From contig WRLY01000002.1 of the NCBI GenBank assembly GCA_009776305.1, forward strand, positions 62,001-126,000: a DNA stretch of 64,000 nt, read 5' to 3'. Position 1 is the stretch's first letter; each line of letters opens with the position of its first letter. The stretch comes from Oscillospiraceae bacterium. Its GTDB lineage: Bacteria > Bacillota > Clostridia > Oscillospirales > Ruminococcaceae. The notes under the pieces are model-generated. The model did not search any database, was not told the DNA's origin, and saw nothing but the letters and a program-made list of their open reading frames with translations. Positions 7,898 to 58,688 of this stretch are shown here, in pieces. The translations under genes were made by a program, and so were the position numbers.

Positions 7898-8578
7898 TTA
7901 TTTGTTATCTGTTAATAAATCCGGTCTTTTCTCCTCTGTAACTTTAAGGCTTTGCTCTTTTTTCCATTTTTCAATATTAGCGTGATGCCCTGAAATAAGC
8001 ACTTCAGGGACTTTTTCCCCGCGCCAGACTTCGGGGCGGGTGTACTGCGGGTATTCTAAAAGTCCGTTATAATGACTTTCTTCGGTGAAAGCGTCCTCGT
8101 TCGGCAAAACGCCGTCCTGAAACCTTGCCACAGCATCAGTCAGAATCAGCGCGGGCAATTCCCCGCCTGTGACGACGTAATCCCCTATTGAAATTTCCTC
8201 AAAGCTTAATTGGTCCAAAACCCGCCTGTCTACCCCCTCGTAATGCCCGCAAAGAATAATCAGTCTTTCTTCTTTTGCAAGCTCTTTTACAAGGCTTTGA
8301 TTGAGGACTTTCCCTTGCGGCGACATGAAAATCAGGCGGGGGTTTTCATTCCCCGCTACGCTTACTGTACAATCATAAACAGGTTGCGACTGCATAACCA
8401 TACCCGTACCGCCACCGTAAGCCTTATCGTCCACACGGCGGTGCTTATCAGTAGTATAATCGCGGATATTATGGCAGTTTATGTCAAGGAAACCGGCTTT
8501 CCGCGCCCGTCCGATTATACTTGCACTTAAATAATTTTCGCACATTTCAGGGAAAAGGGTTAATATGTCGATTTTCAT
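7898..8578 (-). CDS. trmD: tRNA (guanine-N1)-methyltransferase TrmD
   Basis: [33 protein letters not shown]-type [26 protein letters not shown]; real start likely 8578 rather than 8623. Confidence 0.96.
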
Positions 8579-8667
8579 GTTTATCACCATGCCTTTCCGA
8601 ACAAACGTGCTATGAAAGTACATTTTCCCAATTACCGAGGATTTACTTTCAAACTTTTAACATTATC

Positions 8668-13929: not shown

Positions 13930-14886
13930 TCACTCAAGTGCAATTCTAAGCGTTTCCGCGTTTTCCCTCATGAAATCAATATACCCCTTGCCGCTGTCGA
14001 TTTCCTCTTGCGTAACCGTATGGCAGGAATGTAAAAGCATAGGCAGAGCATCGGTTTCGCGGCTTATTGTATTAGCGGTCTTTTTATCAGAAAGCTCGCC
14101 GTAAAAGACGACGGGGATTTGCTCCCGCCTGATTTTTTCAATCAGGAACGCTATGGTCATGGCGCTCGGCTCGGATTCTTCCGAGCAACCTGGGAACGCC
14201 GCGTAATACTCAAGTCCGTAGCAGTCGGCAAGATAGCGGAAAGCAAAACGGTCGGCAAAAACAATGACGTTTCTTGAAGCGTTTGAAATTATCCCGGTAA
14301 AAGCGTTATCAAGTTCTTCAAGCTTTTTTATGTACTCTTCGGCGTTGTTTTTATAAAATTCCGCGTTTTCGGAATCCTTATCGCTTAAAGCGTCGGCAAT
14401 CGCCCGGGTCATTAAAACGGCGTTTGGGGGAGAAGTCCATATATGCTGGTCGAAATTATCGGAATTGTCGGCGCTTTCATGCTCGTGGTCATGCTCTTGC
14501 GTTTCCATGCCTTCAACAATTTCCTCTTCCAAAAGCGTTACGCTGTTCATCAGTCTTACACTTTTGACGTTTTCCTGCTCTGCCAAAATCTTCTCAACCC
14601 AACTGTCGTCCGCACCGCCTATGTAAAGGAAAACGTCACATTCCCTGATTCTGATTATGTCATGCGGGGTAGGCTCATAGGAGTGACTGTCGGCTGAAGA
14701 CGGTAGCAACAATGAAACATCAGCCCTGTCGCCGGCTATATTTTTGGCGAAGTCATATAGAGGGAAGACGGTGGCAATTACTTTTAATTTTCCGCTATTT
14801 TCCGAATACGCGCTGTCCGCACTGCAACCGGGGAGAATACATAACAGCAAAGCTATGATTGTAAAAACAGTTATTGAAGTTTTCAT
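13930..14886 (-). CDS. Zinc/manganese-type metal ABC transporter substrate-binding protein (ZnuA-like)
   Basis: Lipobox LPGC; VFPLYDFAKNIAGDRADVSLLLPSSADSHSYEPTPHDI; acidic His-containing loop EHDHEHESADN. Confidence 0.88.
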   Translation of the reverse strand: MKTSITVFTIIALLLCILPGCSADSAYSENSGKLKVIATVFPLYDFAKNIAGDRADVSLLLPSSADSHSYEPTPHDIIRIRECDVFLYIGGADDSWVEKILAEQENVKSVRLMNSVTLLEEEIVEGMETQEHDHEHESADNSDNFDQHIWTSPPNAVLMTRAIADALSDKDSENAEFYKNNAEEYIKKLEELDNAFTGIISNASRNVIVFADRFAFRYLADCYGLEYYAAFPGCSEESEPSAMTIAFLIEKIRREQIPVVFYGELSDKKTANTISRETDALPMLLHSCHTVTQEEIDSGKGYIDFMRENAETLRIALE

Positions 14887-15107
14887 TTATACCATCCCTG
14901 CCCGACGCCAACGCGCCGTAAAATGTTTTTCCTCTTACACTTGTTATTTTTTCAAGCTAATTTAAGCCCTTGAAACTCAGATGTAAAAATATCCTGCTTT
15001 TTAATGCAAACTTTTGGATAAAATAAACTATAACATAACTTAAAACAAAAGTCAACCTGAAATTTGGCGGATTTTATTAAAGTGTTCGATATAAAATATT
15101 GCAAAAT

Positions 15108-18109: not shown

Positions 18110-18862
18110 ATGGAAAAGAAATTTGAAATTACAGACTTAAACCTTTGGTACGACGCTTTTCAGGCGCTCAAGAACATAAACATTGAAATTCCGAAAAACA
18201 ATGTTACGGCGTTTATCGGACCGTCAGGTTGCGGTAAATCTACTTTCCTTAAAACGCTGAACCGAATGAATGATTTGGTTGAGGGGTGCAAAATAAACGG
18301 AAAGATTTTGCTTGACGGAGAGGATGTTTACGGAGACATTGACGTAAATGCGCTCAGAAAACGGGTTGGAATGGTTTTTCAAAAACCAAACCCGTTTCCT
18401 ATGAGTATTTACGACAACGTAGCTTTCGGACCGCGCACTCACGGAAAGCGCTCTAAGCACGCCCTTGACGAAATAGTGGAAACCGCGCTGAAAAATGCCG
18501 CCATTTGGGACGAGGTTAAAGACAGGCTTAAAAAATCCGCGCTTTCGCTTTCGGGTGGACAGCAACAAAGGATTTGTATAGCCCGTGCGCTCGCTGTTTC
18601 GCCCGATGTAATTTTGATGGACGAACCTACCAGTGCGCTTGACCCCATATCTACGTCAAAAATCGAGGACTTAATATTTGACTTAAAAGAGAAATACAGC
18701 ATAATAATAGTAACGCACAATATGCAACAGGCGGCGAGAATTTCCGACCTTACGGCGTTCTTCCTTTTGGGAGAACTTATTGAGACCGGTGACACGGATA
18801 AAATTTTCTCTATGCCTAAAAACAAAAAGACCGAGGATTATATTACTGGGAGGTTCGGGTAG
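18110..18862 (+). CDS. pstB: Phosphate ABC transporter ATP-binding protein PstB
   Basis: [52 protein letters not shown]. Confidence 0.97.
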
Positions 18863-18881
18863 ATTGAAAAAAGGACAAATA

Positions 18882-18935
18882 CAAGAGGAAATATATTTTA
18901 TGGCTCGCTTATGTCTGGAAAGGAAGATATAAAAT
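18882..18935 (+). repeat. Leader cassette copy A, upstream of phoU
   Basis: caagaggaaatatattttatggctcgcttatgtctggaaaggaagatataaaat then ATG; about 42/54 identical by eye to copy B. Confidence 0.75.
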
Positions 18936-19610
18936 ATGAGAAACAAATTTGAAGAACAGCTTAAAGAGCTTAACAACAAGCTTATAGAAATGGGCGCGGT
19001 TGTCGAACACTCGATTTCGACCACGGTGGAGGCGTTGCTTAAACAAGATTCCGGGCTTGCCGACACGGTTATAGAAGACGAGAGATTAAGCGACGCAAAG
19101 GAAAAGGAAATCGAAACGCTTTGCCTGAAACTGCTTTTGCATCAACAGCCTGTAGCAAGCGATTTGCGGATTATTTCTTCCGCACTCAAAATGGTTACCG
19201 ATATGGAAAGAATCGGAGACCAGGCAAGGGATATAGCCGAAATCACAAAATTCCTTGAGGGCAGCAATTTTATAAAGAAACCCGAAGACATAGAAAAAAT
19301 GGCTGTTGAAACCAGAAAGATGCTTAAAGAAAGCATCGACTCTTTCGTAAACAGGGATTTGGACTTGGCAACCAATGTTTTAAAGCATGACGACGTTGTA
19401 GATGAGCTTTTCATGAAAATCAGAAAAGACCTGATTGGGCTTATTCGTGAAAATCCCGCTAACGGCGAGCAGGCGCTTGACTTGCTCATGATAGCAAAAT
19501 ACTTTGAGAGAATAGGCGACCACGCTGTAAATATAGCCGAATGGGTCATATTTATGATAACCGGAAAGCACAGAAGCGGCGAAATATTATACCAATACAG
19601 AAAGTATTAG
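18936..19610 (+). CDS. phoU: Phosphate transport system regulator PhoU
   Basis: PhoU helical repeats; VASDLRIISSALKMVTDMERIGDQARDIAEI and YFERIGDHAVNIAEWV. Confidence 0.95.
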   Translation: MRNKFEEQLKELNNKLIEMGAVVEHSISTTVEALLKQDSGLADTVIEDERLSDAKEKEIETLCLKLLLHQQPVASDLRIISSALKMVTDMERIGDQARDIAEITKFLEGSNFIKKPEDIEKMAVETRKMLKESIDSFVNRDLDLATNVLKHDDVVDELFMKIRKDLIGLIRENPANGEQALDLLMIAKYFERIGDHAVNIAEWVIFMITGKHRSGEILYQYRKY

Positions 19611-19631
19611 GAGCTTTTGAAAAAGCAAGCG

Positions 19632-19685
19632 CAAGAGAAAATATATTTTATGGTTCGTTGACGCCGGGAAGGGATGGTATATAAA
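19632..19685 (+). repeat. Leader cassette copy B, upstream of phoB
   Basis: caagagaaaatatattttatggttcgttgacgccgggaagggatggtatataaa then ATG; about 42/54 identical by eye to both A and C. Confidence 0.75.
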
Positions 19686-20396
19686 ATGAGCCTAATATAT
19701 ATTGTCGAGGACGATAAGCATATAAGAGAGCTTGTAATTTACGCGCTCAAATCCAATGGCTTTGATGTCGTTGGGTTTGAATCAGGCGCGGAATTTTATG
19801 CTAAAATGCAAAAAAACGGAAGCCCTGATGTTGATGAAAATTCCGACGGCAACGTATATCCTGACCTTATTTTGCTTGATATTATGCTACCCGGTGAGAA
19901 CGGACTCAGTATATTAAAAAATATTCGCGTTAAACCGCTTACTGCGGGTATTCCCGTAATTATACTGACAGCCCAAACCGGCGAATACGACAAAGTGACC
20001 GGTCTTGACCTCGGCGCAGATGATTATATTACCAAGCCTTTTTCTGTGTTAGAGCTTATTTCACGGGTTAAGGCGGTGCTGAGACGTATGCGGTCGCCCA
20101 ATTGTGAGGTATTATCCTGTAAAGGCGTTGAACTTGACGTATTGAAACACACTGTAAAAAACAATGGAGAATATGTAAAACTGACCCGCAAGGAATTCGA
20201 GCTTTTGCAGTATCTCATGCAAAACAGGGGTATGGTTTTGTCCCGTGACAGAGTTATCGAAACGATTTGGGATTTTGACTTTGAGGGGGAAAGCCGAACG
20301 GTTGATATGCACATAAAATCGCTGAGAAAAAAGCTTGGCGAAAACGGCGGTTTAATTGAGACAGTGCGCGGAATTGGCTATAAATTTGAAAATTAA
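19674..20396 (+). CDS. phoB: Response regulator PhoB/PhoP (OmpR family)
   Basis: YIVEDDKHIREL, LILLDIMLPGENG, winged-helix LTRKEFELLQYL; possible alternative in-frame start at 19686. Confidence 0.93.
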   Translation: MVYKMSLIYIVEDDKHIRELVIYALKSNGFDVVGFESGAEFYAKMQKNGSPDVDENSDGNVYPDLILLDIMLPGENGLSILKNIRVKPLTAGIPVIILTAQTGEYDKVTGLDLGADDYITKPFSVLELISRVKAVLRRMRSPNCEVLSCKGVELDVLKHTVKNNGEYVKLTRKEFELLQYLMQNRGMVLSRDRVIETIWDFDFEGESRTVDMHIKSLRKKLGENGGLIETVRGIGYKFEN

Positions 20397-57255: not shown

Positions 57256-57281
57256 TTATAAATTAAAAAAAATAACAACCG

Positions 57282-57335
57282 CAAGAGGAAAAATATTTTA
57301 CGGCGTGTTAATGCCGGGAAAGAATGGTGCATAAA
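57282..57335 (+). repeat. Leader cassette copy C, upstream of GH1
   Basis: caagaggaaaaatattttacggcgtgttaatgccgggaaagaatggtgcataaa then ATG; same 54-nt length as copies A and B. Confidence 0.75.
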
Positions 57336-58688
57336 ATGTTCAAAAAAGATTTTGTATGGGGCGCGGCTACTTCAAGCTATCAGATTGAGGGGGCGGCATA
57401 CGAGGACGGCAAGGGCTTGAATATTTGGGACATGTTTTGCCAAAAAGACGGCGCAATCTACGAAGGACATAACGGCGACGTTGCCTGTGACCATTACCGC
57501 AGATACAAGGACGATGTTGCCCTTATGAAAGAGTTGGGGCTTAAAGCCTATCGTTTCTCGATTTCATGGGCGAGAATCATGCCCGACGGCACGGGCGAAG
57601 TTAATCAAAAAGGCTTAGAATTTTACAATAATCTTATAAATGAGCTGATTGCAAACGGCATAACCCCTTTCATAACCCTTTTTCACTGGGAGTTGCCCCT
57701 TGAATTACATAAAAGAGGCGGTTGGCTAAACCCCGATTCCCCCGACTGGTTTGCAGAGTACGCCAAAGTCGTAGTCGAAAACTTCTCGGACAGGGTTAAG
57801 CATTTTATAACCTTTAACGAACCGCAGGTCTTCATAGGTTTCGGCTGTATTACCGGAACACACGCTCCGGGTCTTAAAATGTCGCTTTCGGAAATAATTC
57901 CGATGGCGCACAATGTTCTTATTGCCCATGGCAAAGCGGTTAAAGCCATGCGCGCAATCGCAGGCGATTTGCAAATAGGTTTTGCCCCTTGCGGAACTTT
58001 CCCTTATCCCGAAACCGAGAGTCTTGAAAATATAGCCATTGCGAGAAAAGAGGCTTTTACCGTGACCGACGACGAAAGATGGTTTTGGAGCGTTTCATGG
58101 TGGAGCGACCCCGTAGTTTTGGGCAAATATCCCAAAGACGGGCTTCAAATTTTCGGTAAATATCTCCCGGAGGGCTACGAAAAAGATTTAGAAACAATAA
58201 AACAGCCGATTGACTTTTACGGACAGAACATTTATCATGGCTTTGCCGTAAAAGCAGACAAAAACTGCGAGCTTGAAGTAATAAAAAGATACGAGGGCTA
58301 TCCCCGTAATTCTTTCGGCTGGGCTATTACCCCTGAGGCGCTGAAATGGGGCGCAAAATTTTTATACGAAAGATATATGTTGCCTATTTACATCACCGAA
58401 AACGGGCTCTCCTGTCACGATGTAATTTCCCTGGACGGAAAAGTTCACGACCCTAACAGAATTGATTTTCTCAACCGCTATCTGCTCTGCTTGAGAGAAG
58501 CCGCGGACGAGGGTGCGGACGTGGCGGGGTATTTCCAGTGGTCGCTTATGGATAATTTTGAGTGGGCGGCAGGTTACAGCGAGCGTTTTGGTTTGGTTTA
58601 CGTCAATTTTGTTACGCAGGAGCGAATCATTAAGGATAGCGGGTATTGGTACAGAGAAGTGATTGAAAGTAACGGGGAGAATCTGTAG
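57324..58688 (+). CDS. GH1 family beta-glucosidase
   Basis: FVWGAATSSYQIEGAAYEDGKGLNIWDMFC, TFNEPQVF, YITENGLS. Confidence 0.96.
   Translation: MVHKMFKKDFVWGAATSSYQIEGAAYEDGKGLNIWDMFCQKDGAIYEGHNGDVACDHYRRYKDDVALMKELGLKAYRFSISWARIMPDGTGEVNQKGLEFYNNLINELIANGITPFITLFHWELPLELHKRGGWLNPDSPDWFAEYAKVVVENFSDRVKHFITFNEPQVFIGFGCITGTHAPGLKMSLSEIIPMAHNVLIAHGKAVKAMRAIAGDLQIGFAPCGTFPYPETESLENIAIARKEAFTVTDDERWFWSVSWWSDPVVLGKYPKDGLQIFGKYLPEGYEKDLETIKQPIDFYGQNIYHGFAVKADKNCELEVIKRYEGYPRNSFGWAITPEALKWGAKFLYERYMLPIYITENGLSCHDVISLDGKVHDPNRIDFLNRYLLCLREAADEGADVAGYFQWSLMDNFEWAAGYSERFGLVYVNFVTQERIIKDSGYWYREVIESNGENL

Follow-up and report, generated by a model that had tools for sequence, protein, structure and literature searches.

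The palindromic elements of Rickettsia lie in frame inside genes, where their insertion is tolerated through compatibility with translation. A different arrangement is seen in the TAACTGA direct repeats of Beggiatoaceae, Cyanobacteria and Bacteroidetes, which occur in many intergenic sets ending a few nucleotides from start codons in sense orientation (MacGregor 2015, PMC4679880). These sets follow no gene theme, ribosomal proteins being among the genes behind them, have a patchy distribution and no known mechanism, and consist of heptamer arrays that contain stop codons in forward reading and mostly lack a ribosome-binding site (RBS) (PMC4679880). In class 1 integrons, the short open reading frames of attI1 (ORF-11, ORF-17 and ORF-18) come with their own Shine-Dalgarno (SD) sequence and are coupled to the gene behind, and for ORF-11 the SD and the start matter while amino-acid changes matter little (PMC8876359).

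Here we analysed a window of 64,000 nucleotides from an Oscillospiraceae bacterium (genome G000, 1.54 Mb, 71% complete) that contains repeats of about 72-76 nt directly before genes. We regard these as probably being non-autonomous interspersed repeats that were inserted in sense directly before the start codon, behind the SD and its spacer, and that are tolerated by means of a mini-ORF coupling translation to the gene. A preliminary description had drawn attention to a pair of similar 54-nt leaders before phoU and phoB; both copies are present at those places, but the unit is longer, starting with TTGAAAAA, which provides a TTG start, and ending at the base preceding the ATG of the gene (Table 1). 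The 28-nt consensus given in that description matches the window at two places only, 18882 and 19632, and has no match in 100 dinucleotide shuffles. An interior 17-mer found more copies in G000, including two tandem pairs spaced 72-73 nt, and the genome-wide search that had been proposed brought the number to dozens, namely 44 with a sequence-only model built on ten copies (R1, E<1e-3) and 48 with a broader model (R2, E<=0.01), five of the latter being located in the window. RBS regions generally share purine-rich SD sequences and AT-rich spacers, and on such general grounds a compositional or chance likeness might be suspected, but this explanation is refuted by the shuffles, by dozens of copies with E<1e-5 and by a 74-nt insert facing an exact empty site at rplO, and we give it next to no probability.

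Table 1. Repeat copies and their associated translation signals in the window.
Feature	Position	Strand	Details
Original SD (GGGAGG), pstB 3' end	18848..18853	+	with copy A present, 10 nt ahead of the TTG of the mini-ORF
Repeat copy A, flanked by the pstB-end SD and the phoU ATG (18936)	18864..18935	+	R1 63.2 bits, E=3.1e-17; R2 E=3.7e-14
Mini-ORF of copy A, TTG..TAA, 22 codons	18864..18932	+	3 nt separate the stop from the phoU ATG
Element-borne SD-like GGAAAGGAAG preceding phoU	18917..18926	+	read from sequence
Repeat copy B, between the phoU stop and the phoB ATG (19686)	19617..19685	+	R1 71 bits, E=1.1e-19; R2 E=5.1e-17
Element-borne SD-like GGGAAGGG preceding phoB	19666..19673	+	read from sequence
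Repeat copy before GH1 beta-glucosidase gene (ATG 57336)	about 57263..57335	+	R2 57263-57338, E=3.9e-17; gene by TIGR03356
Repeat copy before zinc/metal ABC transporter substrate-binding gene (13930-14886, minus)	about 14887..14956	-	R2 14886-14956, E=4.6e-19
Repeat copy before trmD (ATG at 8578, minus)	about 8579..8654	-	R2 8577-8654, E=1.8e-12; gene by NF000648

The position of the repeat relative to the gene is nearly invariant. For the copies of G000, a gene on the same strand starts at -3 to +6 nt relative to the point where the model match stops, or else another tandem copy comes next, with a single exception that is also the weakest copy. As R1 and R2 contain the start codon, a third model was built on a 46-nt core from which both the TTG and the ATG were left out (R3); its 42 matches in G000 (E<=0.1) all fall on the known copies adjoining start codons, and no copy away from start codons was found by this core-only search. 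Among 78 copies sampled from seven other genomes, 69 adjoin an ORF of at least 60 aa, and most of the remainder are directly followed by another unit of a tandem array or by an ORF that is cut or below this length. The enrichment at start codons on which the preliminary description had staked its reading is therefore present, with R3 as well.

The genes behind the G000 copies are phoU, a phoB-like gene, trmD, dnaN, efp, glyS, accC, miaA, rsmH, scpB, pyrF, spoIIIAA, comF, rdgB-like, fliJ-like and Nif3-like genes, genes for a metal-binding protein, a beta-glucosidase, a KH protein and a cysteine desulfurase, and rpsC and secY, which were identified by sequence. No functional theme was found among 20 downstream genes. 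Orthologues support the start proposed for phoB at 19686, the second in-frame ATG. The element ahead of phoB creates an in-frame upstream ATG (GGGATGGTATATAAAATG, 19674-19685), so that automatic annotation would start phoB four codons early (MVYKMSLIY), and similar misannotation of starts is likely at other copies. In addition, the ORF that follows a tandem pair of elements at G000:C1:91817 is only 36 aa long and may represent a frameshifted or very short gene.

Comparison of orthologous leaders in sister genomes, which had also been suggested, revealed empty sites at rpsC, rplO, efp, phoU and phoB. The rpsC site is empty in genomes G315 and G316, where GGAGTAATAGA is joined to ATGGGACAA with the junction at the ATG, and filled in G000, G317 and G318, which carry inserts of about 75 nt at this very junction. 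For rplO, G316 is empty (GGAGGTAACAGAAGC joined to ATGAAATTACAT) and in G315 identical flanks enclose the 74-nt insert, while for efp, AAAAGGAAGGGAAGCA is common to G000 and G315 and is followed by CA and the ATG in G315 and by the element in G000. Both phoU and phoB are empty in G315, G316 and G320 and filled in G000 and, by another subtype, in G317; in the three insert-free genomes the GGGAGG SD of the pstB end stands directly before the phoU ATG. The element thus enters downstream of the original SD and spacer and upstream of the start codon, and no target-site duplication is visible at the rplO, rpsC and efp empty/filled pairs.

The element is also found in both G000 and G317 at secY, dnaN and accC, while glyS, efp and rsmH carry it in G000 but not in G317, and for miaA the gene start itself differs between genomes. 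Overall, six of nine compared sites that are filled in G000 are filled in G317 too, by different subtypes, and G315 and G316 are mostly empty there. Random placement would lead to roughly 5% sharing, as estimated from 96 copies in roughly 2,000 genes, and the excess suggests either insertion hot spots or selection acting on certain genes. It thus keeps alive a regulatory reading, in which the repeat is a cis-regulatory translational operator, that is, a site for an RNA-binding protein or sRNA that covers the RBS of the many genes of a regulon and has been maintained and spread because their co-regulation was selected. At rpsC, the identical empty spacer of G315 and G316 suggests that the G317 copy was gained independently of that in G000, although an ancestral copy that was precisely lost twice is a possible alternative.

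The nearest named genomes to G000 are Oscillospiraceae MAGs, and the isolate codes Emb289, Lab288, Th196 and Nt197 suggest, going by the names, that they derive from termite guts. With R2 (E<=0.01), at least 160 copies were found in G324 (Th196P3bin48, the same record as G006), 96 in G317 (Lab288P3bin172), 36 in G318, 27 in G323, 20 in G020, 17 in G012, 13 in G315 and one in G316, and there were none in several relatives. In a tree of 17 ribosomal-operon proteins, G316 and G317 are sisters with full support, followed by G315 and then G000, so that sister genomes differ by 96 copies to one. When R2 was applied to 120 genomes of the family, only G000 matched, with no match in 118 other genera represented by one genome each. 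A 24-nt pattern of the 3' end matched at chance level in 295 genomes of the order, an insensitive negative since the pattern misses most copies of G000 too, owing to their spacing.

Copies within G324, G323 and G318 have a mean identity of 0.78-0.81, compared with 0.45-0.58 between G000 and the others, and each genome has its own sequence subtype. Arrays of several units with a period of about 76 nt occur in G324, and in G324 and G317 tandem arrays of three to four units (period about 75-79 nt) are located directly before genes. The units of one array in these two genomes are nearly identical to each other, which suggests recent local amplification. A separate, AT-rich and MITE-like repeat of about 110 nt (TTAATAATTAATAATT...AATTATTAATTATTAATTAA) precedes several ribosomal-protein genes in G320, and a shorter one precedes one ribosomal-protein gene in G000; unlike the start-codon element of about 75 nt, these are positioned upstream of the SD.

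Besides its own SD, the element contains a TTG start and a usually open frame of about 23 codons that stops beside the gene start. The stop is no more than 12 nt away from the gene start in 47 of 78 copies with a start, against about 27% in dinucleotide shuffles, and premature stops are depleted (17 of 78, against about 64% in shuffles of the same copies); because the copies share descent, these counts describe a trend and not independent events. An SD-like sequence stands ahead of the mini-ORF start in 62 of the 78. The commonest geometries of mini-ORF stop and gene start are a 4-nt overlap and a 1-nt gap, and most near-start stops fall inside the range of -4 to +3 that has been reviewed as the most efficient for translational coupling (PMC12548453). 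The mini-ORF is not essential, given that start or frame has been lost in roughly half of the G000 copies, and in copy B the TTG frame is broken by a TGA at 19659.

Intact in-frame ORFs such as LKKSSSVRGKIFHHSLVLEEEGI followed by a stop, present in about 19 of 43 copies of G000, could alternatively represent a conserved leader peptide gene, whose functional product of about 23 aa would act by stalling or attenuation and which would have been duplicated before many genes. We consider this very improbable, as many copies are out of frame and a conserved peptide was rejected by the coding test, in which differences in the G000 core are spread over the codon positions (0.333/0.355/0.332) with no excess at the third. 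Moreover, the GAAAGG..ATGG block that is common to the subtypes is read in different frames in G000, G324, G318 and G317, giving unrelated peptides. With frames differing by species and the peptide not conserved, selection appears to act on openness and coupling rather than on the peptide.

The compensating stem proposed in the preliminary description is weak. Immediately ahead of the SD, a short stem is on average slightly more stable than shuffles, as seen in five genomes, but it is no consensus feature: RNAalifold gave eight weak pairs for ten copies and no consensus pairs for either 46 or 111 copies, and a column-pair scan of the copies found no helix. Folding of single sequences predicted a pair of hairpins for certain subtypes (G323, z=-3.6; G315, z=-2.7) and nothing unusual for the copies of the window, in which Rfam matched only a tRNA and gave no riboswitch or other known structured RNA for the repeat. 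An operator would be in line with the overlap of the repeat with the RBS, with the conserved GAAAGG..ATGG core, with the sites shared by G000 and G317, and with the pre-SD stem and the hairpins of G323. However, the downstream genes lack a functional theme, the larger alignments lack a consensus structure, the sequence subtypes differ strongly between species, and the whole set is missing from G316 while its sister G317 has 96 copies; hence, we regard the operator as unlikely.

Our best reading remains a translation-transparent, non-autonomous repeat, either mobile or duplicative, and the mobile translation-initiation module, or RBS-carrying element, that had been considered at the outset fits the dispersed copies, the empty orthologous sites and the internal SD at the start codon. 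The REP-like element considered alongside it is not supported, since neither a Y1/RAYT transposase nor a GTAG-type palindrome was found. Y1_Tnp (PF01797) is absent from the incomplete drafts of G000, G317, G324, G318, G323, G315 and G012, with a weak match in G020, and reverse transcriptase (RVT_1, PF00078), expected if the repeat derived from a group II intron or another retroelement, is absent from those of G000, G317, G324, G318 and G323. The consensus contains neither the short GTAG-headed palindrome typical of REP nor a hairpin, and the ends seen in the alignments (TTGAAAA.. and ..TAAA(ATG)) are not complementary as the terminal inverted repeats of a MITE would be. All copies have one orientation relative to the gene, while REP sequences often form head-to-head pairs. 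A classical element of the MITE, REP or RAYT type, lying upstream of genes by happenstance, would share the small size, dispersal, non-autonomy and species-by-species amplification of the repeat, but the clean empty/filled pairs lacking terminal inverted repeats and target-site duplication, the missing Y1 transposase in element-rich genomes and the fixed orientation and position at start codons make it quite improbable.

For the translation-transparent repeat, we propose that insertion would occur by transposition or by template-switching duplication, always in the sense direction, and template switching between SD-start segments may offer an enzyme-free route. The old SD of the host gene would then drive initiation at the 5' TTG of the element, the ribosome would translate the short frame up to its stop at, or overlapping with, the ATG of the gene, and the purine-rich SD (GRAAGG-like) near the 3' end of the element would promote initiation or reinitiation on the gene. 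With such transparency to translation, insertion would have little effect on expression, even in operons of ribosomal proteins, which would allow the element to spread, to form tandem arrays and to split into subtypes peculiar to each species. More tentatively, these repeats might constitute a new class of mobile elements that targets the translation initiation site and has repeatedly and independently entered the same genes in related species, with the host protected by the start, the open frame and the SD.

No such repeat family was found in Rfam or in the open-licence literature, although an earlier description elsewhere is possible, and no paper on repeats of termite-gut Oscillospiraceae was found in that literature. 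If our reading is true, a dispersed element would have the space separating SD and start codon as its target, or as the only place where it is tolerated, with host genes kept working through translation coupled by a disposable mini-ORF. The dozens of insertions would then amount to a natural experiment on translational coupling and would explain start-codon misannotation in these genomes, and they would raise the question of which machinery recognises a translation start in DNA or RNA.

Among known systems, the TAACTGA repeats are the closest description that we found, being alike in placement and in the missing gene theme and different in sequence, size and architecture: the present unit has about 75 nt, its own SD, a mostly open TTG frame and exact empty sites, and none of the copies that were read contains TAACTGA heptamer arrays. 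REP/REPIN sequences with their RAYT and prokaryotic MITEs are similarly small, non-autonomous and dispersed, with lineage-specific amplification, but the present repeat lacks inverted-repeat ends, a Y1 transposase and target duplication and is confined strictly to the space between SD and start codon. With the palindromic elements of Rickettsia it has in common an insertion that is tolerated because it is compatible with translation, though it precedes the start codon and is not palindromic. The attI1 ORF-11 resembles it in principle, in being a short ORF with an SD whose stop lies beside the start of the next gene, a likeness borne by the 47 and the 62 of 78 copies given above for stop and SD, respectively. 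However, no integron parts were noticed here, and ORF-11 is fixed and genes move to it, whereas in the present case it is the mini-ORF unit that has been distributed among genes.
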